Shown here in pieces: positions 50,575 through 64,000 of a stretch of DNA of 64,000 bases. Position numbers and translations under genes: made by a program. Numbering within the stretch: position 1 is the stretch's first letter; each line of letters opens with the position of its first letter. The DNA comes from Dawidia soli (GTDB lineage: Bacteria; Bacteroidota; Bacteroidia; Cytophagales; Cyclobacteriaceae), in assembly GCF_018598185.1 (NCBI RefSeq), contig NZ_JAHESC010000013.1, positions 62,001-126,000 on the forward strand, given 5' to 3'. A model generated the notes under the pieces. That model had not been told where the DNA came from, ran no database searches, and was given only the letters and a program-made list of their open reading frames with translations.

Positions 50575-51261
50575 CTAAACACACCCCTGTGATGCTTTCA
50601 GCTTCGGAAACAACACATTATTCTCCAAATGCAACCGGTGCGTCAGCGTCTTATCCAACCCCTGCAGCATTACTCCCGCCAGCGCCACACTCGGCGACGA
50701 CAGCTCCTGCATCGAATAATTCCCCGTCAGACACCGCAGTGCGTGGATGAGGTCCGCCAGGTATAAATGCTCCTTTTCCATCTTCGCCAACCCGGCGCGC
50801 ACCGCGGGCCGCCCCCTACCCTTGACGTTATTCCGCAAAGGCTTCAGCAACAGTTCCTCTTCTGCATGTGTATGCCGCCGGCAAGCCGCACACAAGCTCG
50901 TAAAACACGCATGGATCGCCGAGATCTTCGGCTCCTCTGCCTTACTACACTCCTTCAACACCTGGTTGAGCACTTCTTGTAACATCACCAGTTCCGTATT
51001 CAGAACATCCGCATGGTTCAGGATCAGGTCGGAAAGAAAGTCCGCCGCACATCCATCCCACGTCTGCTTCCAGCGGCTATCGGCGGGGGCTGCCGCCACG
51101 ATCTCGCGCCACAGCACCGCGGCGTCCAGATCTTTTTCCTGGCAAGCCTCGATAAACGGCGTCGCGCCGCGGCAGTAATAGTCCACATTGTACCGGTCCA
51201 GGATCTCTACCGCGTGCGGGAAGAAAACCACGACATCATATACCGTCGCCACCAGGTTCAT
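50575..51261 (-). CDS. RIC/ScdA-type iron-sulfur cluster repair di-iron protein
   Basis: 228 residues. ScdA_N part with EILDRYNVDYYCRGATPF, where the usual Cys-Cys pair is Tyr-Cys (only Cys30 kept). Hemerythrin-like four-helix bundle with His83 (LNHADVLN), His130/His132 (RRHTHAEEE), Glu residues that follow, His165 (KEHLYL) and His208/His211-Glu213 (HRLHLENNVLFP) as di-iron ligands. RIC proteins repair clusters damaged by NO or oxidants. Divergent from the class II ribonucleotide reductase, with a TGAY-N4-RTCA box set for each direction, which places it in the nos regulon. Confidence 0.85.
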   Translation of the reverse strand: MNLVATVYDVVVFFPHAVEILDRYNVDYYCRGATPFIEACQEKDLDAAVLWREIVAAAPADSRWKQTWDGCAADFLSDLILNHADVLNTELVMLQEVLNQVLKECSKAEEPKISAIHACFTSLCAACRRHTHAEEELLLKPLRNNVKGRGRPAVRAGLAKMEKEHLYLADLIHALRCLTGNYSMQELSSPSVALAGVMLQGLDKTLTHRLHLENNVLFPKLKASQGCV

Positions 51262-51289
51262 AGCTATATAGTTTTATATGAGACGGACG

Positions 51290-51297
51290 CAAAAATA
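51290..51297 (-). promoter_or_regulatory. -7 element of the RIC gene
   Basis: TATTTTTG on the minus strand (51297-51290), a full match. Its 5' end is 30.5 nt from the centre of the box at 51322-51333. No TTG at -33, as expected for an activator-dependent promoter. Predicted leader about 22 nt. Confidence 0.55.
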
Positions 51298-51321
51298 GCT
51301 CACGGCTACAGATCATTCTTA

Positions 51322-51333
51322 TGATTTATATCA
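51322..51333. promoter_or_regulatory. Crp/Fnr-type box, serving the RIC gene
   Basis: TGATTTATATCA, matching TGAY-N4-RTCA. Centre about 44 nt upstream of the predicted RIC transcription start and 26 nt from the next box. Confidence 0.7.
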
Positions 51334-51347
51334 CATCCCCGCATGTA

Positions 51348-51359
51348 TGACTCAAATCA
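51348..51359. promoter_or_regulatory. Crp/Fnr-type box, serving nrdJ
   Basis: TGACTCAAATCA, in the extended symmetry ATGACTCAAATCAT. Centre 29.5 nt before the start of the nrdJ -7 element, about -43.5 from the predicted start. Confidence 0.72.
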
Positions 51360-51382
51360 TGCCGCCTGCGCATCACCTCGTT

Positions 51383-51390
51383 TATATTTG
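51383..51390 (+). promoter_or_regulatory. -7 element of nrdJ
   Basis: TATATTTG, a full TAnnTTTG match; predicted start near 51397, leader about 31 nt. The -33 position has no TTG, consistent with activation from the box at 51348-51359. Confidence 0.65.
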
Positions 51391-51427
51391 ACACCATCGC
51401 TATCGTTAAACTAAAACAAACAAGCCT

Positions 51428-53278
51428 ATGCAATTAAATCAGCGCATCCTGAGTGACCTGATCATCCACATGAAATACGCGCGGTACGTTCACGCCCTGC
51501 AACGACGGGAGCTGTGGCCCGAGATCTGCGAGCGTTATGCCACCATGCTCATCGAGCGCTATCCGGCCCTGCAGGAAGAGATCCGCGCGCAGATGCAGTT
51601 TGTACTCGATAAAAAAGTACTGCCTTCCATGCGCGCCATGCAGTTTGCCGGCACGGCCATCGAACGCAACAACAGCCGCATCTACAACTGTGCCTATCTG
51701 CCCGTAGACGACATCCGCGCATTTTCGGAAGCCATGTTCCTGCTGCTCGGCGGCACGGGGGTAGGCTTCTCCGTGCAACGCGAGCACATCGAAAATCTAC
51801 CGGCCGTTCAAAAAGCGCCGAAGCGAAAACGCTTTCTCGTCGGCGACAGCCTCGAAGGCTGGGCCGATAGCGTCAAGGTATTGCTGAAAGGTTATTTCGG
51901 TCTGAGCGCGTATCTGCCCGACTTCGACTACTCCGACATCCGCCCGAAAGGCGCACGCCTCGTGACCGCCGGCGGCAAGGCCCCCGGCCCCGAGCCGTTG
52001 AAGATCTGCATCGCCCGCCTCTCCGCCATGCTCGACGGCAAACGCGACGGTGAACGGCTCTCGTCGCTGGAGTGCCACGACATGATGTGCCACATCGCCA
52101 ACGCCGTGCTGGCGGGTGGCATCCGGCGGTCGGCCATGATCTCCCTGTTCTCGTATGACGATGAGGAAATGCTCACCTGCAAGTTCGGGAACTGGTGGGA
52201 GCTGAACGAGCAACGCGGCCGCGCCAACAACTCCGTCGTACTTCCCCGCGACACCACCACCCGCGAACAGTTCTTCGCCCTCTGGCAAAAGATCGAATTG
52301 TCGGGCGCGGGCGAACCCGGTTTCTACTTCACCAACAATGCCGACTGGGGCACCAATCCCTGTTGTGAGATCGCGCTACGGCCCTTCCAGTTCTGCAACC
52401 TCTGCGAGGTCAACGCATCGGACATCGAAAGCCAGGAAGACCTCAACCAACGGGCGGGCGCAGCGTCGTTCTTCGGCACGCTGCAGGCCGGCTTCACCAA
52501 CTTCCACTACCTGCGCGAAGTATGGAAGACCACGACCGAGAACGAAGCCCTCATCGGCGTCGGCATGACGGGCATCGCCAGCGGCGAAGTCTTTAAATAC
52601 GATTTACAGGAGGCCGCCGAGGTCGTGAAGCGCGTCAACATGCGCACCTCCGGTAAGATCGGCATCCAGTTCGCCGCCCGGTGTACAACGGTCAAGCCCT
52701 CGGGCACCTCATCGATCGTGCTGGGTACATCGTCCGGCATCCACGCCTGGCACAACGACTACTATCTGCGGCGCGTACGCATCGGCAAGAACGAAGCGCT
52801 CTACGACTACCTCAAAGACAACCACCCTGAATTACTCGAAGACGACCTGCTCAACTCCAGACAAGGCATCATCCGCATTCCGCAACAGGCGCCGGCAGGT
52901 TCCATCCTGCGTACCGAAAGTGCGCTCGACCTGCTGGAGCGGATCAAAAAATTCAACACCGAGTGGGTGCGCAACGGCTACCGCAACGGCAGCAACGCCA
53001 ACAACGTATCGGCCACCGTCAGCATCCCCGACGGCGACTGGGAAAAAGTAGGCGAATGGATGTGGCAGAACAAAGCTTCCTACAACGGCCTCAGCGTCCT
53101 TCCCTACCACAACGGCAACTACAAACAAGCCCCCTTCGAAGACATCCCCGCCGCCGAATTCACCCGCCTCGAAGGCACCCTCAAAGACCTCGACCTCTCC
53201 CGCGTCTTCGAACCCGACGACCTCACCGACCTCCAATCCGAAGCCGCCTGCGCCGGCGGCGCGTGCGCAATCGTGTGA
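51428..53278 (+). CDS. nrdJ: B12-dependent class II ribonucleotide reductase, compact RTPR type
   Basis: 616 residues, compact. Ten-stranded barrel motifs are present: IERNNSRIYNCAYLPV with Cys88, LLGGTGVGFSVQ, and NPCCEIALRPFQFCNLCEVN with Asn310, radical Cys312, Glu314 and Cys323. The 11-residue spacing Cys312-Cys323 equals that of Cys408-Cys419 in the Lactobacillus leichmannii enzyme, so Cys88/Cys323 would be the reducing pair. The tail ACAGGACAIV carries Cys608 and Cys613 for re-reduction. Makes deoxynucleotides without oxygen using adenosylcobalamin. The paired Fnr-type boxes upstream fit expression at low oxygen. Confidence 0.92.
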   Translation: MQLNQRILSDLIIHMKYARYVHALQRRELWPEICERYATMLIERYPALQEEIRAQMQFVLDKKVLPSMRAMQFAGTAIERNNSRIYNCAYLPVDDIRAFSEAMFLLLGGTGVGFSVQREHIENLPAVQKAPKRKRFLVGDSLEGWADSVKVLLKGYFGLSAYLPDFDYSDIRPKGARLVTAGGKAPGPEPLKICIARLSAMLDGKRDGERLSSLECHDMMCHIANAVLAGGIRRSAMISLFSYDDEEMLTCKFGNWWELNEQRGRANNSVVLPRDTTTREQFFALWQKIELSGAGEPGFYFTNNADWGTNPCCEIALRPFQFCNLCEVNASDIESQEDLNQRAGAASFFGTLQAGFTNFHYLREVWKTTTENEALIGVGMTGIASGEVFKYDLQEAAEVVKRVNMRTSGKIGIQFAARCTTVKPSGTSSIVLGTSSGIHAWHNDYYLRRVRIGKNEALYDYLKDNHPELLEDDLLNSRQGIIRIPQQAPAGSILRTESALDLLERIKKFNTEWVRNGYRNGSNANNVSATVSIPDGDWEKVGEWMWQNKASYNGLSVLPYHNGNYKQAPFEDIPAAEFTRLEGTLKDLDLSRVFEPDDLTDLQSEAACAGGACAIV

Positions 53279-53329
53279 GAGCAAAAATAGAGTGAGTGTG
53301 AGCGCGAATAGTATGGGGTGAGGGGTAGT

Positions 53330-53422
53330 AGGGGCGCAGCCCCTGCATGCACACATCTGGCGCAAGTTTGAGCGAAGCGGAAACTTGTGCCTGAACGGTA
53401 GGCAGTTTATAACTGCCTACCG
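53330..53422. repeat. Three-hairpin intergenic element, copy 1
   Basis: Stem 1: AGGGGC (53330-53335) with GCCCCT (53339-53344). Stem 2: GGCGCAAGTTT (53359-53369) with AAACTTGTGCC (53381-53391), one G-T pair at position 4. Stem 3: CGGTAGGCAGTT (53396-53407) with 53411-53422, perfect 12 bp, loop TAT. Lies between the convergent ends of nrdJ and the 598-residue gene, so it may also end both transcripts. Same layout as the element at 63809-63908. Confidence 0.75.
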
Positions 53423-53424
53423 TA

Positions 53425-55221
53425 TCACGCACACACAACCTCCAACCTCCTCACCAATTCCCCGATCTCCACCTCACACCGCGTCAGCTGCTCATTAAAA
53501 ACTCCCGCCTCCACGGTAATCCCCTCGCTCATCTCCCGGTAATACCCGATCCCCTTCAAAAGGTTCTGACTGAAATGCAGCAGGTCCTTCGCGACTTTCC
53601 CATCCATCTCCGTCAACGCCAATACCTGTTCCTCCAGGTACTTGATATTCAAGAGCAATTCTTTGATAAACATATGCGGTCTGTTTTTTATACCGATCAA
53701 ATCTCCACGGCCATATATATGGTCCGTCATTTCCACCAGCGACGCCACCCGGCTGAAGTAGGCTATATTCGGTCCGGGGCACACCGTCACCGCCTCGAGC
53801 TTCTTGAACGGCGGCAGCCCGTAACGATGGATCGCCGAATTGCTCAGCCCGATGCACAGGCACTCCTTGCTGATGACCTCGTGATACCGCTTGATATACT
53901 GTTCCTGCGGCAACCCGAGCGAACGCAGCTGTTCGATCTTCTTTTTCTGGTACGCATGCGACGCCGTACAGATCGGCTCCGTCGTAAACTCCGTGTTCGA
54001 GATCAGGTGCTTCTCCGTACACGGACTACCCGGCCGCCCCTGCGTCACGCGCAGTAGTCTTTCCCGTTGGCCCGACGTTCCCTTCAGGTAATTGAACCGC
54101 ACCCCCAGCGGCGAAGCATCACTCAGGATCACATCCTCCTCGCGCGCGGCGCCGAGCAGCTGCAACGTCTCGTCGTCCACCGTCGTCGCCTCGGGGCACA
54201 ACAGAAAAGGCGTACCCCAGCCCACGCTCGCCAGCGCATAGTGCGCCGCCAGGAACGTCGCCTCCTCGCACGTGCCGACACCGCCCTGCGCCGTGATGCG
54301 CAGCGGATGCGGGGCATCAAAGACCGGCAAGCCCTTCGCCACCGCGGCCGGTTGATACAACGCATGCAGCGACGCCACCAGCTCGGCCCGTTTGGTCTTA
54401 AACTCTTCCAGGATCGGCCCCAGCAACGTACCGTCTGTAGCAAACGCGTGGCCGCCGCAGTTGAGCCCCGATTCGATCCGGAACTCGCTCACCCAGATTC
54501 CTTTCTTCGCCAGGTATTTACCCTGCACCAGGGCCGAGCGATAGTCGCTGACCTTGATGATCACCTCCTTGCCGAACACACCATGATCCAGCGGATGAAA
54601 CGCCTCCAGCTTTTCCAGGTAGTTGAACAGCCGCGGGTTCAACCCCGCCGAAAAAACCACCGCCGAGTTTTCCAGTACACTGCTCGCATACCCGCGTAGC
54701 GCCGCCAGCGCATCCGATGCATCGGGCAGCACGCTGCCGTCTTTCGCATGGTGATTCCGGTCTACCTTCGTCATGATGTTCACATCGATCCGGCCCGGGC
54801 GGATCTGGCTGCGCAGGTATTTCTCCAGCGTTTCCTTTTCGCGCCGGTCGACCGACTTTGTCATGTGCTCATAGATCCCCCGCAGGGGGTTCCCCTCCGG
54901 CAGCATTTCGAAATACTTCGAGAGCTCGGAGCCCGTAGTGAACACCGCGCTGCGCAGCTTCCGGATCTGCCCGTGCACCAGGTCGTGCACCAGGTTCAGG
55001 TAATCGGCGATGCGCCGGGCCCGGTAGTCGGGCTCATGCTGTGTTATCGCGAAGAATGGCCGGCCGGCCTGCTGGTAATAATGTTTGCGCATGGCTTCGA
55101 TCAGGTTGTCTTCGATGATCGAGATCACCGAGTCGATGCCATACCGGGCTACCTTCACAGGCGTATCGACTGTAAAGGCCAATCCCATTACCGGAATATG
55201 AAAGTTGTGTAGTGCTTGCAT
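53425..55221 (-). CDS. Uncharacterised Cys-rich TIM-barrel-like protein of the low-oxygen island
   Basis: 598 residues, soluble, no signal. The start IPVMGLAFTVDTPVKVARYG and the later RITAQGGVGTCEEATF followed by SVGWGTPFLLCPEATTVDD resemble the FMN-binding TIM barrels of nitronate monooxygenase, FabK and glutamate synthase domain 2 (GG-x-GT, then G-T-x-F). Cysteines at 255 (NCGGH), 318, 342, 401, 418, 454, 456 (ECLCIG) and 481 (VCPGP) are in conserved-looking Gly/Pro contexts and could hold an iron-sulfur cluster. The last 100 residues are helical. Divergent from the oxidase-like gene with two Crp/Fnr-type boxes between. I know no characterised member; flavin and cluster binding are inferred. 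Confidence 0.6.
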   Translation of the reverse strand: MQALHNFHIPVMGLAFTVDTPVKVARYGIDSVISIIEDNLIEAMRKHYYQQAGRPFFAITQHEPDYRARRIADYLNLVHDLVHGQIRKLRSAVFTTGSELSKYFEMLPEGNPLRGIYEHMTKSVDRREKETLEKYLRSQIRPGRIDVNIMTKVDRNHHAKDGSVLPDASDALAALRGYASSVLENSAVVFSAGLNPRLFNYLEKLEAFHPLDHGVFGKEVIIKVSDYRSALVQGKYLAKKGIWVSEFRIESGLNCGGHAFATDGTLLGPILEEFKTKRAELVASLHALYQPAAVAKGLPVFDAPHPLRITAQGGVGTCEEATFLAAHYALASVGWGTPFLLCPEATTVDDETLQLLGAAREEDVILSDASPLGVRFNYLKGTSGQRERLLRVTQGRPGSPCTEKHLISNTEFTTEPICTASHAYQKKKIEQLRSLGLPQEQYIKRYHEVISKECLCIGLSNSAIHRYGLPPFKKLEAVTVCPGPNIAYFSRVASLVEMTDHIYGRGDLIGIKNRPHMFIKELLLNIKYLEEQVLALTEMDGKVAKDLLHFSQNLLKGIGYYREMSEGITVEAGVFNEQLTRCEVEIGELVRRLEVVCA

Positions 55222-55278
55222 GGAGCTTGTTTACATAAAAGAACGCCGAAAGAAACAACGTTCGCCGGCAACGCGGTA

Positions 55279-55290
55279 TGACCAAAATCA
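55279..55290. promoter_or_regulatory. Crp/Fnr-type box upstream of the 598-residue protein gene
   Basis: TGACCAAAATCA. At the expected 29.5-nt distance toward the minus-strand gene lies TTTCTTTC, a partial -7 match. 26 nt centre to centre from the next box, the same spacing as at nrdJ/RIC. Confidence 0.65.
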
Positions 55291-55304
55291 CAGTCACCGA
55301 TACC

Positions 55305-55316
55305 TGACAAAAATCA
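55305..55316. promoter_or_regulatory. Crp/Fnr-type box upstream of the oxidase-like gene
   Basis: TGACAAAAATCA, 58 nt before the ATG at 55374. No recognisable -7 element at the standard distance on the plus strand. Confidence 0.62.
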
Positions 55317-55373
55317 GCCGCGCGCCTGATCCTTGCCACACATTCCCCGCCGGCATCGAGCGACCTTCGTTAC

Positions 55374-56558
55374 ATGAGCTCTCTCTACAAAGTCCCGCTC
55401 CTCCTGCTGTTCGTCGGCGCCTGCATGGGCCTGTTCCTGCGGTACCAGCTCATCGCTCCCACGCAGGCCGTCAACTTCACCTATGTGCTGCACGGACATT
55501 CGCACGTCATGTTCCTGGGCTGGGTCTTTAATGTGCTCTACCTCGCGTTCGTATCGCAATTCACCGCCGGCCAGCGCATCTTCCGCATCCTGTTCTGGAT
55601 CCTGCAGGTCAGCGTCGCCGGCATGCTGGTCTCCTTTCCGCTGCAGGGCTACGGGCTGTATTCCATTGTTTTTACCACGCTGCATACCTTCGGCGCCTAT
55701 GTCTTTATCGCCTGCTTCCTGTTCCACACGCGCACCCGCTCGTCGCTGGCGATAACGCTGGCCCGCACCGCCCTGCTGCTTTTTGTCGTATCTTCGTTCG
55801 GTCCGTTCTACCTCGGCTACCTCAATGCCACCGGACTTGGACATTCCAATCTATACCGCTTCGCCATTTACTTCTATCTGCACTTTCAATACAACGGATT
55901 CTTTTTCTTCGGCGTGCTCACGCTGCTCCTCCAGGCCGTCGAGCCTGCCCTCACCCCCGCGGGCCGCACGCGCGTCCGGCGGGGCATGTATATAGCATGG
56001 GGCACCAGTGTACTCACCTATCCGCTCAGCATCCTGTGGGCCTCGCCCGGTATGGGCTATAACATCGTGGGGTTTGTCGCCGCCGTCGTGCAAGTCCTCG
56101 CGCTGCTTTGTTTCATCACGCCCGTAAAGATCTTCCTATCGCAACTGACCGATCGCAGTGCCCGCCTGCTCGTGGTGCTGAGCGCCGCTGCCCTGGTGTT
56201 TAAGTGTATACTGCAGATCCTTTCCGCCCATCCGGCGCTCGCGCTGTTTGCCAACGAATACCGCGCCGTCGTGATCGCCTACCTGCACCTGGTCTTGTTG
56301 GGATGCATCTCCTTCTTCCTCGTGGGCTGGCTGATCTATAAAGACCTGCTGCCCGCCGGCATCGGCCGTCCCGTCAAAGCGATGATCATCGGTTTTATCG
56401 GTTCGGAGATAGTACTCGGCATCATGCCCTGGTCCGCCGCCGTCTTTCGTGTCGAGCCCATGCTGCTGCACAAAGGGATCTTCGTGCTCTCGATACCGCT
56501 GACCATCGGCATGGCAGGCATCACCTATCGCGGCACGATCGGCACGCGACGCATCTGA
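55374..56558 (+). CDS. Heme-copper-oxidase-like polytopic membrane protein without catalytic HH pair
   Basis: 394 residues, about twelve membrane helices. Helix 2 carries YVLHGHSHVMFLGW (His40, His42, His44), like the low-spin heme helix of oxidase/NorB subunit I; further helix histidines are His104 (TTLHTFGAY), His170 (FYLHFQYNGFFFFG) and His305 (AYLHLVLLG). The CuB HH pair and HxH pair of working oxidases are not seen, so it is more likely a heme- or NO-binding relative (compare NnrS) than an oxidase. Placed between the 598-residue protein and the nos genes; the Crp/Fnr-type box at 56556 overlaps its stop codon. Confidence 0.65.
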   Translation: MSSLYKVPLLLLFVGACMGLFLRYQLIAPTQAVNFTYVLHGHSHVMFLGWVFNVLYLAFVSQFTAGQRIFRILFWILQVSVAGMLVSFPLQGYGLYSIVFTTLHTFGAYVFIACFLFHTRTRSSLAITLARTALLLFVVSSFGPFYLGYLNATGLGHSNLYRFAIYFYLHFQYNGFFFFGVLTLLLQAVEPALTPAGRTRVRRGMYIAWGTSVLTYPLSILWASPGMGYNIVGFVAAVVQVLALLCFITPVKIFLSQLTDRSARLLVVLSAAALVFKCILQILSAHPALALFANEYRAVVIAYLHLVLLGCISFFLVGWLIYKDLLPAGIGRPVKAMIIGFIGSEIVLGIMPWSAAVFRVEPMLLHKGIFVLSIPLTIGMAGITYRGTIGTRRI

Positions 56559-56567
56559 TGTAAATCA
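56556..56567. promoter_or_regulatory. Distal Crp/Fnr-type box of the nos operon
   Basis: TGATGTAAATCA; it begins with the stop codon of the upstream gene. 23 nt centre to centre from the proximal box. Confidence 0.62.
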
Positions 56568-56578
56568 CCCGGCACATA

Positions 56579-56590
56579 TGATTCGAATCA
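56579..56590. promoter_or_regulatory. Proximal Crp/Fnr-type box of the nos operon
   Basis: TGATTCGAATCA, inside the perfect 14-bp palindrome ATGATTCGAATCAT. Centre 29.5 nt before the -7 element at 56614, the same as for nrdJ. Confidence 0.78.
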
Positions 56591-56613
56591 TACGGAAACA
56601 ACAGCCCCCGAAA

Positions 56614-56621
56614 TACTTTAG
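56614..56621 (+). promoter_or_regulatory. -7 element of the nos operon
   Basis: TACTTTAG, one mismatch from TAnnTTTG, placed exactly where the nrdJ geometry predicts. Start near 56628, leader about 43 nt before the ATG at 56671. Confidence 0.55.
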
Positions 56622-56670
56622 TATCCGAATAAAGGGCCAAACCATTATTCAACTATACAACCAAAATACT

Positions 56671-57141
56671 ATGAAAAAGGTAATTCCAGTTCTCGTCGTC
56701 AGCCTGCTGGCGGCGGCCTGCGCACCCGACAAACCGAAGCAGCAGGAAAAAGATGCGTACGACAGCTACGAAACCGCCGAGCCGCTCAAGAACGATCACG
56801 ACGGCAAGGGCATCGGTCAGGTCAAAGACGTCACGCTCAACACACCCCTCGAGCAAGAGCGGGTCGGTCGCGGCAAAGCCATCTATGAAATGAAGTGCTC
56901 GGCCTGCCACCAGCTCACCGACCAGCGCGTCGTCGGCCCGGGCTGGAAGGATGTCACCACCCGCCGCAAACCCGAGTGGATCATGAACATGGTCACCAAC
57001 GTAGACGTCATGCTCGACCAGGACGCCGAAGCGCAAAAGCTGCTGGAGCTCTGCTTAACGCGCATGCCCAACCAGAACGTCAGCATCGGCGATGCCCGCG
57101 ACATACTCGAGTTCATGCGCCAGAACGACGGAGAAAAATAA
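56671..57141 (+). CDS. Lipoprotein cytochrome c, electron donor candidate for NosZ
   Basis: 156 residues from ATG 56671. Signal with lipobox (VVSLLAAACAPDK). One heme site CSACH (Cys76, Cys79, His80) and a likely distal Met in LTRMPNQNVS near residue 131. Acidic linker between lipid anchor and heme domain. First gene of the nos operon, 25 bp before nosZ, so it probably hands electrons from the quinol chain to NosZ in the periplasm. The frame is open upstream to 56578 but that start would lie before the promoter. Confidence 0.9.
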   Translation: MKKVIPVLVVSLLAAACAPDKPKQQEKDAYDSYETAEPLKNDHDGKGIGQVKDVTLNTPLEQERVGRGKAIYEMKCSACHQLTDQRVVGPGWKDVTTRRKPEWIMNMVTNVDVMLDQDAEAQKLLELCLTRMPNQNVSIGDARDILEFMRQNDGEK

Positions 57142-57165
57142 CACGTAACGCCACACTATACTTCC

Positions 57166-59151
57166 ATGAAAACAATCAATCGAGTTCTATTCGGAATGCT
57201 GGCCGTCGCGGCCGCGTTCTCCGCGCAACGCTGTAAACCTTCCGGCCCCGAGCAAGCCCTCACCGGCGACGCGGCCAGCAAGGTATACGTTGCGCCCGGT
57301 AAATACGACGAGTTCTACAACGTCGTCTCCGGAGGCTTCAACGGCCAGATCGGCATCTACGGATTGCCCTCGGGCCGTCTCTTCAAAATTATACCGGTGT
57401 TCTCCACCTTTCCCGAAAACGGCTACGGCTACAGCGAAGAAAGCAAGCCCATGCTCAACACCTCGCACGGCTTTGTGCCGTGGGACGACCTGCACCACAT
57501 CGCCCTGTCCACCACGCAAGGCGAGCACGACGGCCGCTGGGCCTTCGCCAACGGTAACAATACGCCGCGCGTGGCCCGCATCGACCTGCGCACCTTCAAG
57601 ACCGCCGAGATCCTCGAGCTGCCCAACAGCGGCGGCAACCATTCCTCGCCGTTCATTACCGAAAACACCGAGTACGTCGTGGCCGGCACGCGCTTCAGCG
57701 TGCCGATGGGCGACAATACCGACGTGCCCATCAGCTCGTATAAAAAGAACTTCCGCGGCACCGTCAGCTTCATCAAGGTCGATACCTCCGGCCGCATGAA
57801 CATCGCCTTCCAGCTCGTCACGCCCGGTGTCAACTTCGACCTGGCCCGCGCCGGCAAAGGCCCTTCCCACGGCTGGTTCTTCTTCTCCTGCTATAACACC
57901 GAGCAGGCCTATACCCTGCTGGAAGTGAACGCCTCCCAGAAAGACAAGGACTTCATCATGGCCGTCAACTGGAAGAAAGCCGAAGAATACCTGAAGGCCG
58001 GAAAAGGGAAAACCGTCAAGGCTGAATATGCCCACAACACGCTGGACGAGTCTACACACACTGCCACCTCGGAGATTCTCCGGGAAGTACTGCAGCTCGA
58101 CCCGCTGGAGCTCAAGGACATCATATACTTCATACCCTGTCCCAAGTCACCCCACGGCTGCGACGTAGACCCTACCGGTGAATACATCATCGGCAGCGGC
58201 AAGCTGGCCGCCCTCATCCCCGTGTTCTCGTTTGCCAAGGTCCAGGAGGCCATCGCCAAACAGGACTTCGAAGGCGACTTTGCCGGCATCCCCGTCATCA
58301 AGTACGAGTCCGCCCTCTACGGCGAAGTGCAGAAACCCGGCCTGGGCCCGTTGCACACCGAGTTCGACGGCAAAGGCAATGCCTATACCTCTATGTTCGT
58401 ATCGTCGGAGATCGTCAAGTGGAATATCAAAGACCTGGCCGTCATCGACCGTGTACCGACCTATTATTCCATCGGCCACCTCTCGGTGCCCGGAGGTCCT
58501 ACCCGCAAGCCGCATGGCAAGTATGTAGTCGCCTATAACAAGATCACCAAAGACCGCTACCTGCCCACCGGGCCGGAGCTTACGCAGTCCGCGCAGCTGT
58601 ACGACATCAGCGGCGAAAAGATGAAGCTCATCCTCGACTTCCCTACCACGGGCGAGCCACACTACGCCGAGGCCATCCCGGCCGGCCTCATTACGCCCAG
58701 GTCGGTCAAGATCTTCAAACTGGAAGAGAACAAGCACCCCTATGCCGCCCTGGGCGAAGCCAAGACAAAGGTCGAGCGCAAAGGCAACGAGGTGCACGTA
58801 TACATGACGGCCATCCGCTCACACCTCACGCCCGACAACATCGAGGGCATCAAACAAGGCGACGATGTATACTTCCACGTCACCAACCTCGAGCAGGACT
58901 GGGATGTGCCGCACGGCTTCGCTGTCAAAGGCGCGCTGAACGCGGAGATCCTCATCATGCCCGGCGAAACCCAAACGTTGAAATGGAAGGCCGACAAAGT
59001 CGGAATATTCCCCTACTACTGCACCGACTTCTGCTCGGCCCTGCACCAGGAAATGCAGGGGTACGCACGCGTATCCGCGCCCGGCAACAACGTACCGTTA
59101 AAATATTCCACCGGCAAAATCGAAGATCAGACCAGCGGCGCAGCCCAGTAG
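57166..59151 (+). CDS. nosZ: Nitrous oxide reductase, clade II
   Basis: 661 residues. Reduces N2O to N2 in the periplasm. The N-terminus is a Sec-type signal (RVLFGMLAVAAAFSAQRC) with a Cys, not the twin-arginine signal of clade I. Seven-bladed propeller with CuZ histidines in DDLHHIAL (His110/His111), GGNHSSPF (about 159), SHGWFFF (about 235), SPHGCDVD (about 330), PLHTEFDG (about 397) and GHLSV (about 438). C-terminal cupredoxin CuA site: His583 (VPHGFAV), Cys619, Cys623, His627 and Met630 in CTDFCSALHQEM. All ligands expected for activity are present. Confidence 0.96.
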   Translation: MKTINRVLFGMLAVAAAFSAQRCKPSGPEQALTGDAASKVYVAPGKYDEFYNVVSGGFNGQIGIYGLPSGRLFKIIPVFSTFPENGYGYSEESKPMLNTSHGFVPWDDLHHIALSTTQGEHDGRWAFANGNNTPRVARIDLRTFKTAEILELPNSGGNHSSPFITENTEYVVAGTRFSVPMGDNTDVPISSYKKNFRGTVSFIKVDTSGRMNIAFQLVTPGVNFDLARAGKGPSHGWFFFSCYNTEQAYTLLEVNASQKDKDFIMAVNWKKAEEYLKAGKGKTVKAEYAHNTLDESTHTATSEILREVLQLDPLELKDIIYFIPCPKSPHGCDVDPTGEYIIGSGKLAALIPVFSFAKVQEAIAKQDFEGDFAGIPVIKYESALYGEVQKPGLGPLHTEFDGKGNAYTSMFVSSEIVKWNIKDLAVIDRVPTYYSIGHLSVPGGPTRKPHGKYVVAYNKITKDRYLPTGPELTQSAQLYDISGEKMKLILDFPTTGEPHYAEAIPAGLITPRSVKIFKLEENKHPYAALGEAKTKVERKGNEVHVYMTAIRSHLTPDNIEGIKQGDDVYFHVTNLEQDWDVPHGFAVKGALNAEILIMPGETQTLKWKADKVGIFPYYCTDFCSALHQEMQGYARVSAPGNNVPLKYSTGKIEDQTSGAAQ

Positions 59152-59176
59152 CAAAGCATCATAGTTTGAAGGTTGA

Positions 59177-59218
59177 AGGCCCCTGTTCCCATCGATAGCT
59201 ATCGGGGGAACGGGGCCT
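59177..59218 (+). other. Large hairpin between nosZ and the NosL fusion gene
   Basis: AGGCCCCTGTTCCC at 59177-59190 pairs with the segment ending at 59218 (GGAACGGGGCCT) with one bulge; the loop holds the palindrome CGATAGCTATCG. No T-run. Suits partial termination or 3' protection of nosZ mRNA, giving more NosZ than accessory proteins. Confidence 0.6.
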
Positions 59219-59235
59219 CATTTAAACACAGAGAT

Positions 59236-60261
59236 ATGAAGACGTTAAATCCCTTTTCCAGGATCGCCCTGGTCCTCTCGGCCGGCATGCTGCTGGCCGC
59301 CTACTACGTGCCGCTCTGGCAGATCCTGATGTGGGCGCCGCAATACCCCGAGGGCCTCGAAATGAAGATCTGGATCGACAACATCACCGGCGACGTAAAG
59401 ATCATCAGCGCCCTCAACCACTACATCGGCATGAAACACATCGAGGTGAGCATGTTTCCCGAGTTCGGCTATATGAAATACATCGTCGCCGCCGTCATCG
59501 GCGCCGGCCTGCTCGCGGCCGTCATCAACAAACGAAGCGCCCTCGTCGGCTATGCCCTGCTGCTGCTCGGCTGCGGCGTGGCCGCCCTGGTAGACTTTTA
59601 CCTCTGGGGGTATAACTATGGCCACAACCTGGACCCTACCGCGCCCATCGTCGTGCCCGGCATGTCCTACCAGCCGCCGCTGCTCGGCACCAGGCAGCTC
59701 CTCAACTTCACCGCCTTCTCCGGACCGGCCACCGGCGGGTGGATCTTTTTTGCCTCCGCCCTGCTGGCCTTTGCCGCCGTCGCGCGCGAAGTGTGCCCGC
59801 TCCGTTGGCAAACGCACCGCATCACCGCTACCCCTGTCGCCGCCCTGCTGCTCAGCTTCGCCCTGGCATCGTGCACCGTCGGTCCCGCGCCGATCCAATA
59901 CGGCACGGACGCCTGCCACCATTGCAAAATGACGCTGATGGACCCGAAGTTCGGCGCCGAGATCGTGACCCGCAAAGGCAAAGTATATATCTTCGACGAC
60001 ACCGGCTGCCTGGTCTCGTTCTTACACGCCGGCGAGGTCAAACCCGCCGACATCGCCCACACCCTCATCACCGACTTTACCACCGGCACCCTGGTCGATG
60101 CCGCGGCGGCCTTTTACCTGCAGGCCGACGCCGTCGGCAGTCCCATGGCCAGCAACCTCGCCGCCTTCGCCCACCGCGCCGACCGCGACGCCTTCCAGAA
60201 GACCTGGCACGGCGCCTTCCTTACCTGGCAACAGGTCACCACCCAAGCCGCCCATCCATGA
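59236..60261 (+). CDS. nosL: Fusion of a four-helix membrane protein and NosL copper chaperone
   Basis: 341 residues from ATG 59236 (MKTLNPFSRIALVLSAGMLL). N-terminal part with helices at about 9-28, 75-93, 98-118 and 165-185, similar in place to NosB-type membrane proteins of clade II nos clusters. After a fifth hydrophobic stretch with a lipobox-like LASCTVGP comes a NosL domain: YGTDACHHCKMTLMDPKFGA with the copper-binding Cys-x-x-Cys-x-Met, YIFDDTGCLVSFL and ITDFTTGTLVDAAAAFY. NosL delivers copper to NosZ. The stop overlaps the nosD start (ATGA). Confidence 0.85.
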   Translation: MKTLNPFSRIALVLSAGMLLAAYYVPLWQILMWAPQYPEGLEMKIWIDNITGDVKIISALNHYIGMKHIEVSMFPEFGYMKYIVAAVIGAGLLAAVINKRSALVGYALLLLGCGVAALVDFYLWGYNYGHNLDPTAPIVVPGMSYQPPLLGTRQLLNFTAFSGPATGGWIFFASALLAFAAVAREVCPLRWQTHRITATPVAALLLSFALASCTVGPAPIQYGTDACHHCKMTLMDPKFGAEIVTRKGKVYIFDDTGCLVSFLHAGEVKPADIAHTLITDFTTGTLVDAAAAFYLQADAVGSPMASNLAAFAHRADRDAFQKTWHGAFLTWQQVTTQAAHP

Positions 60262-61490
60262 GACTGATCCTGCTGCTATATTTACTACCGGTACTCCCGC
60301 TGCTGGGCCGCACGGTAACCGTCAGCAAGACCGGCCCGCTCACCAGCCTGAAGCAAGCCGTAGCACAGGCACAGCCGGGCGATACCATCCGCGTGCAGGC
60401 CGGCACCTATGCGGAAGGCAACATCGTCATCGAAAAATCACTCGTGCTGCTCGGCGAGCACTACCCCGTGCTCGACGGCCGGCATAAAGATGAGCTGCTC
60501 ACCGTGCACGCCCGGAACGTCATCATCCAGGGCTTCCGCTTTGTGCACACCGGCATCTCCAGCATCCACGACCTGGCCGGCGTCAGGATCCTCGACTCCG
60601 AGGCCGTCCGCATTCGCGGAAACCAGTTCGATGACACCTTCTTCGGCATCCACATCTCCAACTCCTCCCACTGCCGCATCGAAGACAACACCCTGCACGC
60701 GCAGGTTCGGGTCGAGCACCAGGTCGGCAACGGTATCCACCTCTGGAAATGCCAGCACATGACCCTGCACAACAACCGCGTGCACGGCCACCGCGACGGC
60801 ATCTACTTCGAGTTTGTCACCAACTCGCTGATCACCGAAAATTACAGTGAAGGCAACCTGCGCTACGGCCTGCACTTCATGTTCTCCCACAACAACGAGT
60901 ACCGCCGCAACACCTTCGAGAACAACGGCGCCGGCGTGGCCGTCATGTATACCTATGGCGTGAAGATGCTCGACAACACCTTCGCGCACAACTGGGGTTC
61001 GTCCGCCTACGGCTTGCTGCTCAAAGACATCCGCGACAGCGAAGTACATCACAACCGGTTCATCCAAAACAGCGTCGGCATTTTTATGGAAGGCTCCAGC
61101 CGCATCCGGTTCACCCAAAACGAATTCGACGGCAACGGCTACGCCGTACGCCTCCAGGCCAGCTGCGACGACAATACCTTTCAGCAAAACAACTTCCAGG
61201 CAAACACCTTCGACCTGGCCACCAACGGCACGCTGGTGCTCAACCACGTCGACGGCAACTACTGGGACAAATACCAGGGCTACGACCTGGACAAAGACCA
61301 CATCGGCGACGTGCCCTTTCACCCCGTCAGCATGTACTCCATGGTCGTCGAGCAAATGCCCGCGGCCGTGCTGCTGTGGCGCAGCTTCCTGGTGCTGCTC
61401 ATGGACAACGCCGAAAAGGCCATCCCCGCCATCACGCCCGAAAACCTGAAAGACAACTCACCCGCTATGACACCGCATGATCTCCATTAA
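60258..61490 (+). CDS. nosD: NosD periplasmic copper-site maturation protein
   Basis: 410 residues from ATG 60258, overlapping the nosL stop. Signal peptide LILLLYLLPVLPLLGRT, then a right-handed beta-helix of parallel repeats (NRVHGHRDGIYFEFVTNSLI; YRRNTFENNGAGVAVMYTYG; HHNRFIQNSVGIFMEGSSRI) and a C-terminal hydrophobic anchor (VEQMPAAVLLWRSFLVLLMD). Works with NosF and NosY in building the CuZ cluster. Its last 14 bp overlap nosF. Confidence 0.93.
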   Translation: MRLILLLYLLPVLPLLGRTVTVSKTGPLTSLKQAVAQAQPGDTIRVQAGTYAEGNIVIEKSLVLLGEHYPVLDGRHKDELLTVHARNVIIQGFRFVHTGISSIHDLAGVRILDSEAVRIRGNQFDDTFFGIHISNSSHCRIEDNTLHAQVRVEHQVGNGIHLWKCQHMTLHNNRVHGHRDGIYFEFVTNSLITENYSEGNLRYGLHFMFSHNNEYRRNTFENNGAGVAVMYTYGVKMLDNTFAHNWGSSAYGLLLKDIRDSEVHHNRFIQNSVGIFMEGSSRIRFTQNEFDGNGYAVRLQASCDDNTFQQNNFQANTFDLATNGTLVLNHVDGNYWDKYQGYDLDKDHIGDVPFHPVSMYSMVVEQMPAAVLLWRSFLVLLMDNAEKAIPAITPENLKDNSPAMTPHDLH

Positions 61491-62205
61491 GAACGTACGC
61501 AAAACCTTTGGCAAGCTCACCGTGCTCGACGGCATCGACCTCACGCTCACCGCCGGCCGCTCCTATGCGCTGGTGGGGCCCAACGGCTCGGGCAAGACCA
61601 CGCTCATCAAAAGCATCCTGGGCATGGTGCTGCCCAGCGCCGGGGATATATACTTCGACGGCACCTCCATCGCGCGCCACTGGCAGTACCGCGAAAAGAT
61701 CGGCTACATGCCGCAGATCGGCCGCTACCCCGAAAATATGACCATCGGCCAGATCGTCGACATGATGAAGAACATCCGCACCGGCGCCCACACACCCGAC
61801 GAAGAGCTCATCGAAAAGTTCAAACTCGCCGGCATGTACAGCAAACGCATGCACACCCTATCGGGCGGCACACGCCAGAAAGTAAGCGCGGCGCTGGCCT
61901 TTCTCTTCCGCCCCCCCGTCCTGATCCTCGACGAGCCCACGGCCGGGCTGGACCCCGTGTCCGTCGAGGTGCTGAAAGAAAAGATCCTCGCCGAGAAAGA
62001 GAACGGCAAGCTCGTCATCGTCACTTCGCACATCCTCAGCGACCTCGACGAGCTCACCACCGACCTGGTATACCTGTTCGAAGGCCGCATCCATTTCAAC
62101 GACACGATCGCCGCCCTCAAAGCCGACACGCAGGAGCCCCGGCTGGGCCGCGCCGTCGCCACCATGATCCGCCAAAAACAATTACAGGAACCCGTTCAAC
62201 ATTAA
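61477..62205 (+). CDS. nosF: NosF ABC transporter ATPase
   Basis: 242 residues. Walker A GPNGSGKTTLIKS, Q-loop GYMPQIGRYPENM, signature LSGGTRQKVSAALAF, Walker B VLILDEPTAGLDPVS and switch His in VIVTSHILSDL. Cytoplasmic partner of NosY; powers NosDFY. Starts inside nosD and ends 4 bp before nosY, showing tight coupling. Confidence 0.95.
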   Translation: MISIKNVRKTFGKLTVLDGIDLTLTAGRSYALVGPNGSGKTTLIKSILGMVLPSAGDIYFDGTSIARHWQYREKIGYMPQIGRYPENMTIGQIVDMMKNIRTGAHTPDEELIEKFKLAGMYSKRMHTLSGGTRQKVSAALAFLFRPPVLILDEPTAGLDPVSVEVLKEKILAEKENGKLVIVTSHILSDLDELTTDLVYLFEGRIHFNDTIAALKADTQEPRLGRAVATMIRQKQLQEPVQH

Positions 62206-62209
62206 GCCT

Positions 62210-62977
62210 ATGCGCCGCATCATCCAATACGTTCTATACGACATCCTCCGCACGCGGTTCATGCTGCTGTATACCGCGCTGCTGTTCATCAGCACGCTGG
62301 CCATGTTCCAGCTCGACAACGATCCGTCCAAAGTGGTCATGAGCCTGCTCAACATCGTGCTCATGGTCATCCCCCTGGTCGGCATCGTCTTCACCACCAT
62401 CCATTTTTATAATTCCTACGAGTTCATCGAGCTCATGCTCGCCCAACCCGTCGACCGCAAAGTGATCTTCCTGGGCGAATACATCGCAGTAGCCTGCTCG
62501 TTAAGCATCGCCTTCCTGCTCGGCTGCGGCCTCCCCATCCTCCTCTACGGCGCCACCCCCGCCGCCATCACCCTGCTGTGCTGCGGCACCGTGCTCACGC
62601 TGGTATTCGTCTCGCTCGCCTTCCTGGCCGCCGTCCTCACCCGCGACAAAGCCAAAGCCATCGGCGTAGCCCTCCTGTTCTGGTTTTATTTCTCCCTGAT
62701 CTACGACGGCTTCTTATTATGGTTCGTCTACGCCTTCAGCGACTACCCCCTCGAAAAGGTCACCCTCGCCCTCATCGCCCTCAACCCCGTCGACCTCGCC
62801 CGCGTCATCATGCTCCTCCAGCTGGACATCTCCGCCCTCATGGGCTACACCGGCGCCTTCTACAAATCCTTCTTCGGCAGCCACACCGGCATACTCCTCT
62901 CCACCACGCTATTAGCCGTATGGATCGCCCTCCCCTGCTACCTGTCATTACACATCTTCAGTAAAAAAGATTTATAG
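62210..62977 (+). CDS. nosY: NosY ABC transporter membrane subunit
   Basis: 255 residues, six membrane helices: FMLLYTALLFISTLAMF, VVMSLLNIVLMVIPLVGIVF, the helix of VACSLSIAFLLGCGLPILLY, ITLLCCGTVLTLVFVSLAFL, IGVALLFWFYFSLIYDGFLL and the last LLSTTLLAVWIALPCYLSLH. The cytoplasmic motif EFIELMLAQPVDRKVIFLGEY is typical. Last gene of the nos operon; converges on the Crp/Fnr gene with a hairpin element between. Confidence 0.93.
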   Translation: MRRIIQYVLYDILRTRFMLLYTALLFISTLAMFQLDNDPSKVVMSLLNIVLMVIPLVGIVFTTIHFYNSYEFIELMLAQPVDRKVIFLGEYIAVACSLSIAFLLGCGLPILLYGATPAAITLLCCGTVLTLVFVSLAFLAAVLTRDKAKAIGVALLFWFYFSLIYDGFLLWFVYAFSDYPLEKVTLALIALNPVDLARVIMLLQLDISALMGYTGAFYKSFFGSHTGILLSTTLLAVWIALPCYLSLHIFSKKDL

Positions 62978-63006
62978 GAAGAATCAGCGCGAGAGCAAAA
63001 AAAAAT

Positions 63007-63080
63007 TCTGGCGCCGGTATCTGACCGGTGCCTCGTACTGTGTCCGACTACTGGCGGATGGGGGCGGTCTCCCGACCGCC
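63007..63080. repeat. Hairpin intergenic element, copy 3 (shorter relative)
   Basis: GGCGCCGGT (63010-63018) pairs with ACCGGTGCC (63024-63032) with one G-T pair at position 4, and GGCGGTC (63063-63069) with GACCGCC (63074-63080). Flanks TCTGGCGC and GTGCCT are the same as in copy 1, and GAGAGCAAAAA precedes both. Lies between convergent nosY and the Crp/Fnr gene; likely a bidirectional stop signal. No stem 1. Confidence 0.6.
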
Positions 63081-63085
63081 TTGAT

Positions 63086-63700
63086 TCAAAACCGGATCTT
63101 ATGATCGAGCAACGACAACTTCTTCTCCTTCTCCATTTTCTTCACCGTTCTGATCACCGTCTCCACCCGCAGCCCGGTCATGTCGGCCAACTGCTGCCGT
63201 GTATACGGAATAATCACGCCAGCATCGCGCCCCGTAGCATTCTTGGATTTATAGTGCTTCAATAGCGAAAGGATCCTATGCTCCGGCTCATAACTGGAGA
63301 TCTCCGACAACACCATAGACTTATACCGCAGCCGCTCACACAACACCCCGTCCATTTTCAGGTGCAGGTCAAAATTTTCTTTGAGCATCTGGAAAAAATA
63401 ATCCGCCGGCAGCTTCCACACCTGCGAAGGCTCGAGCGCCGCCACATTCCCGGGGTACGGAAACTTACCGATCAGCGCCGGCTCGCCAAAGCTTTCTCCC
63501 GCGCAAAAAATTCCCTGGATAAACTCCTGCCCCTGGGGGTTCACAATAAACATCTTCACCGCGCCGCGTTCCACCTGCAAGTAGTCCGTCGCCGCATCCC
63601 CCTCACACACCAGCATCTGATCCTTCCGAACCGACACCAGCTTCGCATGATACTGCATCAATATCTTCTCAGGAAACACTCTTCTTTTTCGTTTACCCAT
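63086..63700 (-). CDS. Crp/Fnr-family regulator, probable controller of the nos island
   Basis: 204 residues from ATG 63700 (MGKRKRRVF); the ATG at 63658 (190 residues) is supported by the predicted transcription start near 63693, and a start at 63736 is least likely. Effector beta roll with VCEGDAATDYLQVERGAVKM and GIFCAGESFGEPAL, dimer helix, then HTH YTRQQLADMTGLRVETVIRT. The recognition helix reads E-T-V-I-R where Fnr has E-T-I-S-R. No four-Cys iron-sulfur motif, so it is not an oxygen-sensing Fnr; an NO- or heme-based DNR/NnrR role is plausible. A box at 63731-63742 suggests autoregulation. Confidence 0.9.
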   Translation of the reverse strand: MGKRKRRVFPEKILMQYHAKLVSVRKDQMLVCEGDAATDYLQVERGAVKMFIVNPQGQEFIQGIFCAGESFGEPALIGKFPYPGNVAALEPSQVWKLPADYFFQMLKENFDLHLKMDGVLCERLRYKSMVLSEISSYEPEHRILSLLKHYKSKNATGRDAGVIIPYTRQQLADMTGLRVETVIRTVKKMEKEKKLSLLDHKIRF

Positions 63701-63707
63701 AAAGCTA
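63700..63707 (-). promoter_or_regulatory. -7 element of the Crp/Fnr regulator gene
   Basis: TAGCTTTA on the minus strand (63707-63700), 7 of 8 match, starting 29.5 nt from the centre of the box at 63731-63742. Predicted start near 63693, inside the longest reading frame. Confidence 0.5.
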
Positions 63708-63730
63708 ACAGTAAAGCATGTGTCTAATCC

Positions 63731-63742
63731 TGACATCCATCA
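63731..63742. promoter_or_regulatory. Crp/Fnr-type box of the regulator's own promoter
   Basis: TGACATCCATCA fits TGAY-N4-RTCA and stands at the same distance from the -7 element as the boxes of nrdJ and nos. Confidence 0.55.
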
Positions 63743-63908: not shown

Positions 63909-64000
63909 AACGGTACCGTCGTAACCCGTGCCCACTACATCGCTCACCTGCCAACGTCTTACCCATACCTCACACCCACGCCCTCTTAAACCTTTCAAAC

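Follow-up and report, generated by a model that had tools for sequence, protein, structure and literature searches.

The closest described systems are the class II promoters served by FNR, DNR and NnrR in Proteobacteria, in which Crp/Fnr-type regulators, a palindromic TGA-N6-TCA core and denitrification genes are found together. In Nitrosophilus, exact TTGA-N6-TCAA boxes start 48–49 nucleotides (nt) before predicted start sites, which puts their centre near -41.5 (PMC11539149), and a map for F. psychrophilum names TAnnTTTG the -7 box (PMC9723704). Crp homologues of Ignavibacteria, Flavobacteriales and Saprospiraceae have been assigned to MalR or Flp in a study that reported no evidence for their controlling denitrification (PMC8510549). 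The parts of the literature searched did not describe an FNR-type regulon with TAnnTTTG geometry for Bacteroidota. Here we analysed a 64,000-nt stretch of Dawidia soli DNA (the window; positions 62001-126000 of contig C27 in a 7.48 Mb genome of 122 contigs) containing an island of genes for nitrous oxide (N2O) reduction (nos), a class II ribonucleotide reductase (nrdJ), a RIC-type repair protein, a Crp/Fnr regulator, an uncharacterised 598-amino-acid (aa) protein (P598) and a 394-aa membrane protein. With a probability of about 0.8, judged from sequence, this island belongs to a low-oxygen, probably nitric oxide (NO)-linked, Crp/Fnr-type activator regulon with fixed promoter geometry. We infer low oxygen as the signal, and NO is a possible one. 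The pattern itself holds up, is conserved and extends further than the initial annotation of this DNA supposed.

Boxes and promoter spacing in the window

A box was defined as an exact match to TGAYNNNNRTCA (TGAY-N4-RTCA), and spacing as the distance from the box centre to the first T of a TAnnTTTG-like -7 element. Eleven boxes were present in the window, against the seven counted initially; 100 shuffles gave a mean of 3.40 (standard deviation 1.90, largest 9) and none reached 11. Seven of the boxes make up four island promoter regions at 51.3, 55.3, 56.6 and 63.7 kb. The initial annotation placed all sites in these regions, which holds for its own seven and fails for the remaining four (19755, 37011, 41215 and 55116), all inside long open reading frames (ORFs), the last of them within the P598 gene. 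The promoter features are as follows.

51290..51297, minus strand: RIC -7 element TATTTTTG
51322..51333, minus strand: RIC box TGATATAAATCA, centre 30.5 nt from the RIC -7 element
51348..51359, plus strand: nrdJ box TGACTCAAATCA, centre 29.5 nt from the nrdJ -7 element
51383..51390, plus strand: nrdJ -7 element TATATTTG
55248..55255, minus strand: weak candidate -7 element of P598, TTTCTTTC, matching at 4/6 positions
55279..55290, minus strand: box TGATTTTGGTCA nearest P598, with the weak TTTCTTTC at 29.5
55305..55316, plus strand: box TGACAAAAATCA nearest the 394-aa gene, without a clear -7 element
56556..56567, plus strand: upstream box of the nos tandem, TGATGTAAATCA, 23 nt from the next box
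56579..56590, plus strand: nos box TGATTCGAATCA, centre 29.5 nt from the -7 element
56614..56621, plus strand: nos -7 element TACTTTAG
63700..63707, minus strand: regulator -7 element TAGCTTTA, overlapping codon 13 of the listed ORF
63731..63742, minus strand: regulator box TGATGGATGTCA, centre 29.5 nt from the -7 element, possibly autoregulatory

The geometry first read from these promoters was confirmed, with spacings of 29.5 nt at nrdJ (TATATTTG), nos (TACTTTAG) and the regulator (TAGCTTTA) and of 30.5 nt at RIC (TATTTTTG). The two nos boxes are 23 nt apart and both divergent box pairs 26 nt apart. The box at 56579 falls formally inside a 187-aa ORF and was flagged intragenic because the ORF caller took an upstream start; the likely start of the cytochrome c gene is the ATG at 56671. 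The absence of a -33 TTG at nrdJ and RIC was also correctly noted, as no TTG lies between box and -7 element at either. None was found in that interval at nos or the regulator, and one was present at P598, the fifth window promoter considered. Absence at four of five promoters is as expected if an activator stands in for the -33 element.

The spacing rule in the genome and in the family

Genome-wide statements rest on pattern searches, here for TGAYN4RTCA-N{9,39}-TANNTTTG, in which a gap of 23 nt between box and element equals the 29.5-nt spacing. The D. soli genome yielded 26 matches, 13 of them at gaps 22-25 (approximately 1.9 expected; six at gap 23 itself) and 13 spread over the other 27 gaps. 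The Poisson probability of this peak is approximately 1.4e-7, or 5.9e-6 when the two discovery sites are left out. The initial annotation had asked how often the combined motif stands before unrelated genes, and the scan gave a mixed answer: without a statistical control, 7/13 matches precede fitting genes, 4/13 precede others and 2/13 have no downstream start. The fitting genes are nrdJ, two RICs, GlutR (hemA), HPF, phosphoenolpyruvate (PEP) synthase and a class II aldolase, with the start codons of HPF and the aldolase lying 183 and 133 nt from the element, respectively. A scan allowing one mismatch gave 22 matches against 8 in the backwards control, and only its nos and regulator matches were used.

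The family sample comprised 245 genomes, 118 of which were used for the spacing test. At gap 23 there were 422 matches in 104/118 genomes, compared with 49 matches in 38/118 at the control gap of 28. Twenty gap-23 loci were then chosen, non-randomly, from those listed. In 20/20 an ORF of at least 70 codons starts 11-152 nt downstream of the element, and in 15/20 it starts within 51 nt. Twelve of the products comprise a P-type metal ATPase, NapC/NirT-type cytochromes (in two genomes), GlutR, HPF, HSP20, Usp, RIC, triosephosphate isomerase, phosphofructokinase, phosphate acetyltransferase and a radical SAM protein; we take the ATPase to be CcoI-like and the NapC/NirT-type cytochromes to be NrfH-like. 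The other eight are a GH57 protein, a lamin-tail protein, a DUF4136 protein, a rhodanese/lactamase-type protein and four proteins without a Pfam match (L399, L402, L406 and L410). Judged by general knowledge and with no control gene set, the collection looks like an FNR/ANR-type low-oxygen set.

These counts bear on whether the pattern could reflect chance or base composition. The genome contains 801 boxes, compared with 147 in the backwards control, so isolated boxes are common, as a chance origin would have it. The spacing controls, the shuffles and the conservation described below speak against such an origin, which is refuted for the family-wide geometry and otherwise hardly conceivable.

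Conservation of boxes at island genes in relatives

P598 is present in 126/245 family genomes, and the 300 nt upstream of its gene were examined in 114 of these 126, the 12 with partial genes or contig ends being excluded. An exact box was found in 85/114, where shuffles of 2-mer blocks predict 2.5 and a reversed control gave 1. When the nearest box was used, as in all family P598 counts and named-locus gene counts (our check of the window geometry took the best-scoring box where there were several), a TAnnTTTG-like element matching at least 5/6 positions was located 51.5 nt away in 42/85 (41 of them perfect) and 29.5 nt away in 13/85, with approximately one expected per offset. Of the 44 promoters with the 51.5 spacing, 27 have their best second box exactly 22 nt downstream of the first, which places it at 29.5.

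Individual genes were followed in named loci, the best 80 of 582 stretches encoding a P598 relative, mostly from Bacteroidota with a few from Ignavibacteria and Omnitrophota; one of them, L091, is from the same genome as L063. P598 carries a box in 33/78 of these loci and, counting the nearest box only, an element at 29.5 in 19/33. In the tests of the other genes, for which 0.04 boxes per gene are expected, relatives of the nos cytochrome c have a box in 6/9 (one more lies too near a contig end), RIC relatives in 6/11 and relatives of the 394-aa gene in 5/8 (one at the start codon), and an element of at least 4/6 at 28.5-30.5 accompanies five, four and three of these, respectively. Directly before nosZ there was a box in 0/8 named loci, as expected for an operon. 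In the family genomes nrdJ has a box at 11/30 loci, six at 29.5 and one at 30.5. In L091, from the Cytophagales genus Chryseolinea, nos, P598, the regulator (75% identical), nrdJ (81%) and RIC occur together, with RIC, nrdJ and the regulator in a row behind the box preceding RIC. The suggestion that P598 and the oxidase-like 394-aa gene fall under shared Crp/Fnr-type control is supported by upstream boxes in 85/114 and 5/8 cases, respectively.

The boxes could instead bind a repressor or some unrelated dimeric factor as operators, the spacing then reflecting overlap with the promoter. Some boxes do fall within a gene start or a coding region, which speaks for this reading. The fixed positions at 29.5 and 51.5, two helical turns apart, the missing TTG at 4/5 window promoters and the Crp/Fnr genes nearby fit an activator instead, and we regard an operator role as highly improbable.

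Neighbouring genes in the named loci were taken from a simple longest-ORF script and grouped by single linkage, each cluster being named from one checked member. An Rrf2 regulator cluster and a PTPS/QueD-like cluster each occurred near P598 in 16/80 loci.

Candidate readers of the box

The candidate regulators of the D. soli genome that matter most here are the following.

63086..63736, minus strand: Crp/Fnr regulator, cNMP_binding 67.6 bits and HTH_Crp_2 35.7 bits, recognition helix TGLRVETVIR
C51:17555-18613 and C111:153462-154511, both outside the window: two receiver-Crp hybrids

The listed ORF of the window regulator overlaps its -7 element at codon 13, and translation therefore probably starts further downstream, at ATG 63658 or at the GTG of codon 20 (63679). 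Among PDB entries the regulator's sequence is closest to two cyclic-nucleotide-binding proteins, followed by DNR and then CRP. The protein fits a DNR/NnrR-type pattern, having no Fe-S cysteines, an E-x-x-x-R recognition helix and a position beside denitrification genes. Orthologues (E < 1e-30) were found in 58/245 family genomes.

It could be that this 63.1-kb regulator alone reads all boxes, in a dedicated DNR/NnrR-like NO/N2O regulon confined to the island. The regulator adjoins nos and has its own box at 29.5. Crp matches occurred near P598 in 12/80 named loci, and six of these are close relatives (32-75% identical), some with nos, whose recognition helices are nearly identical (GLR[VI]ETVIR in 6/6). 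Set against this, P598 has the box in 72/92 genomes without a regulator orthologue and in 13/22 with one, and two genomes of the same genus (G074 and G177) have both box and P598, whereas a search at E up to 1e-15 found no regulator orthologue in them. In D. soli the motif stands before hemA, HPF, PEP synthase and the aldolase as well, and at least three other Crp/Fnr proteins of the same genome carry an E-x-x-x-R helix. The reading of the initial annotation's one regulon as served by this regulator alone is therefore not supported, and we consider it improbable.

The genome has 24 cNMP-domain matches, of which four combine the E-x-x-x-R helix with a Pfam Crp-type HTH: the window regulator, L031, L033 and L032. 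Four more proteins (L035, L040, L043 and L046) have RE[TA]LSR at the very C-terminus and are possible additional readers. L031 and L033 are the hybrids, with Response_reg, cNMP_binding and HTH_Crp_2 domains and ESVIR and ESLNR helices. Were these the main readers, a two-component oxygen or redox sensor would drive the regulon as a fused analogue of FixJ-FixK. Their domains and helices suit this role, and orthologues are found in 119/245 family genomes. Near P598, 14/80 loci have a PAS histidine kinase cluster and 7/80 a receiver-Crp cluster; the other six of the twelve Crp matches are 353-357 aa long, and the one checked (L151) is a receiver-Crp protein. In L139 a PAS histidine kinase gene adjoins a receiver-Crp-type gene (same length, Crp match). 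Against the hybrids as main readers, the box is still present in 52/64 P598 genomes that have neither a hybrid nor a regulator orthologue, and we hold this explanation to be unlikely.

Proteins of the L032 type are found in 206/245 family genomes. Among the 30 best-scoring loci, 15/30 have an N-terminal C-x2-C as in Fe-S FNR and 17/30 have a box upstream, four as a pair 22 nt apart, which suggests autoregulation. No N-terminal C-x2-C cluster was present in the D. soli L032 itself. These sequence comparisons suggest that several sensors use the box as a shared address. On the window's contig the full motif (C27:45801 and 50277) precedes a 301-aa gene without a Pfam match, presumably EboA-like, and a ClC channel gene, near the L032 regulator.

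Gene products of the island

Besides the regulator, the island encodes the following.

50575..51261, minus strand: RIC/YtfE-type di-iron repair protein, 228 aa, ScdA_N and Hemerythrin domains
51428..53278, plus strand: nrdJ, adenosylcobalamin-dependent (class II) ribonucleotide reductase, 616 aa, RTPR-like
53425..55221, minus strand: P598, uncharacterised family, 598 aa, remotely PfaD/FabX-like predicted fold
55374..56558, plus strand: 394-aa membrane protein, predicted haem-copper oxidase / NO reductase subunit I fold
56671..57141, plus strand: cytochrome c, first gene of the nos operon
57166..59151, plus strand: nosZ, clade II (Sec-dependent) N2O reductase, TIGR04246 937.8 bits (cut-off 625)
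59173..62977, plus strand: nosL (with an N-terminal membrane part), nosD, nosF and nosY, nosF being assigned by position, length and blastp only

RIC scores below the stricter TIGR03652 cut-off (99.1 of 204.7). NrdJ lies below the curated RTPR cut-off (TIGR02505, 252.9 bits against 340.05), and this is still its best-scoring family. The membrane part and NosL form a single ORF (59173-60261) that is matched by two ORFs in L091 and one in L095. A second RIC-type gene of 244 aa (C27:125973-126704, from window position 63973 to beyond its end) lies upstream of the regulator on the same strand and has a box of its own, with TATTTTTG at 29.5.

Searches with P598 found nothing in Pfam (E up to 10) or NCBIfam (E up to 0.1) and no meaningful PDB sequence match, only chance matches in the C-terminal helices and one other region. 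An AlphaFold2 model built from 59 sequences (pLDDT 91.8) gave as top Foldseek matches the flavin mononucleotide (FMN) TIM-barrel proteins PfaD and FabX (E 6e-10 to 9e-10, probability 1.00). The match is remote, with TMt of 0.40 for PfaD and up to 0.64 for FabX, TMq of 0.34-0.41 and rmsd of 8-14. The motifs CGGH (255-258) and QGGVG (312-316) are invariant except V315 and resemble the GGH motif with the catalytic His and the later GGI/V motif of the NMO/PfaD/FabX superfamily. Six cysteines (255, 401, 418, 454, 456 and 481) are invariant, suggesting an Fe-S cluster, and the modelled fold makes P598 a probable FMN-fold enzyme. A further step, speculative and in our view doubtful, would take P598 as a new family of flavin and iron-sulfur enzymes at the core of a phylum-wide FNR-like regulon of Bacteroidota. 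In its boldest form, P598 would be an O2-independent acyl dehydrogenase/isomerase of FabX-related fold that sustains unsaturated lipid synthesis without O2, much as NrdJ would sustain the supply of DNA precursors. If so, the island would take the place of biosynthetic steps that require O2, with N2O as the electron acceptor. O2 is needed by FabX itself (PMC8626469), so the electron acceptor of P598 would have to differ.

The AlphaFold2 model of the 394-aa protein (pLDDT 88.3) matched a cbb3 subunit and cNOR in Foldseek with TMq of 0.75-0.80. Histidines 40, 42, 44, 170 and 305 are invariant in nine sequences, among which there is no invariant HH pair, and the full set of haem and metal histidine ligands, for which we assumed the haem-copper pattern, is not found.

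Evidence weighed and proposed mechanism

Several observations count against a low-oxygen activator regulon with fixed geometry. Two window genes, for which the initial annotation claimed no spacing, lack a good -7 element: P598 offers just the weak TTTCTTTC (4/6) at 29.5, and measured from either box the 394-aa gene shows no recognisable element at that distance. In the window regulator the first 60 residues contain cysteines only at 7 and 44, without a cluster of the N-terminal FNR type. Of the matches at gaps 22-25 in the genome, four stand before genes for a ClC channel, an ABC ATPase, an a/b hydrolase and a 301-aa protein without a Pfam match, and no downstream start was found for two others (L010 and L016). 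The channel, the ATPase and the hydrolase, and in relatives the lamin-tail protein and GH57 behind the motif, are not obvious low-oxygen genes. No exact box was found in 29/114 P598 upstream regions or at nrdJ in 19/30 family loci, and in the named loci nrdJ has a box in 0/3 and the regulator in only 2/6. Among boxed P598 promoters, 28/85 match neither 29.5 nor 51.5. Lesser unexplained peaks occur at 6.5 (10/85) and 26.5 (9/85), with imperfect elements only; these are possibly box flank bases and the -33 region of upstream-type promoters. The 29.5 geometry was not seen in six testable loci of Ignavibacteria and Omnitrophota (L149, L154, L157, L159, L167 and L170).

In the activator model we nonetheless favour, a Crp/Fnr dimer would sit on TGAY-N4-RTCA, centred 29.5 nt before the initial T of TAnnTTTG. 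With transcription starting approximately 12 nt after that T, the box centre would fall near -41.5, the class II FNR/CRP position, and an upstream box near -63.5. The bound activator would replace the missing -33 element and touch RNA polymerase. In many relatives a stronger box 22 nt, or two helical turns, further up would create a tandem promoter, and the window nos promoter is such a tandem (23 nt). Box and geometry occur in several Bacteroidota classes and would probably be read by L032-type relatives, the nos-linked regulator and receiver-Crp hybrids; in the island, nos, nrdJ and RIC are likely to be read by the nos-linked regulator. The output would be N2O respiration (nos), O2-independent DNA precursor synthesis (NrdJ), Fe-S repair (RIC), the membrane protein of haem-copper fold and P598. 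For low-oxygen genes of a phylum in which clade II N2O reductase is frequent, this amounts to a promoter rule that can be tested. It also places the widespread uncharacterised P598 family in a functional setting and suggests a single promoter architecture shared by Crp/Fnr sensors that are otherwise unlike.

Comparison with known systems

The island represents a known kind of control in a form not found described in the parts of the literature searched. Compared with the FNR, DNR and NnrR promoters of Proteobacteria, it has a TAnnTTTG -7 element in place of a -10 element and does not require the outer T of TTGA. It also has several unlike Crp/Fnr proteins with similar recognition residues, among which the window regulator lacks the FNR cysteines. 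The FixLJ-FixK2-NnrR system of Bradyrhizobium is alike in that nos and other denitrification genes answer to more than one Crp/Fnr factor; it belongs to another phylum, and D. soli has the receiver and Crp domains fused into a single protein.

Among the gene products, the 394-aa protein resembles the cbb3 oxidase subunit and cNOR NorB in predicted fold (TMq 0.75-0.80) and differs in its approximately 14% identity, in having no Pfam match over the cut-off and in that the paired histidine motif is not among the invariant positions. P598, set beside Helicobacter FabX and PfaD, has a comparable predicted fold, a cysteine-rich C-terminal part and a His in GGH, whereas its cysteine spacing differs from the C300/C304/C308/C320 (C-x3-C-x3-C-x11-C) of FabX (PMC8626469). 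Finally HcpR, which is named for hcp and is known from Bacteroides and others, is likewise a Crp/Fnr regulator and acts on nitrogen-oxide genes, among them dnrN (RIC) in B. fragilis; the HcpR2 motif GTAACnnnnGTTAC is a box different from that of the present regulon (PMC1274295).

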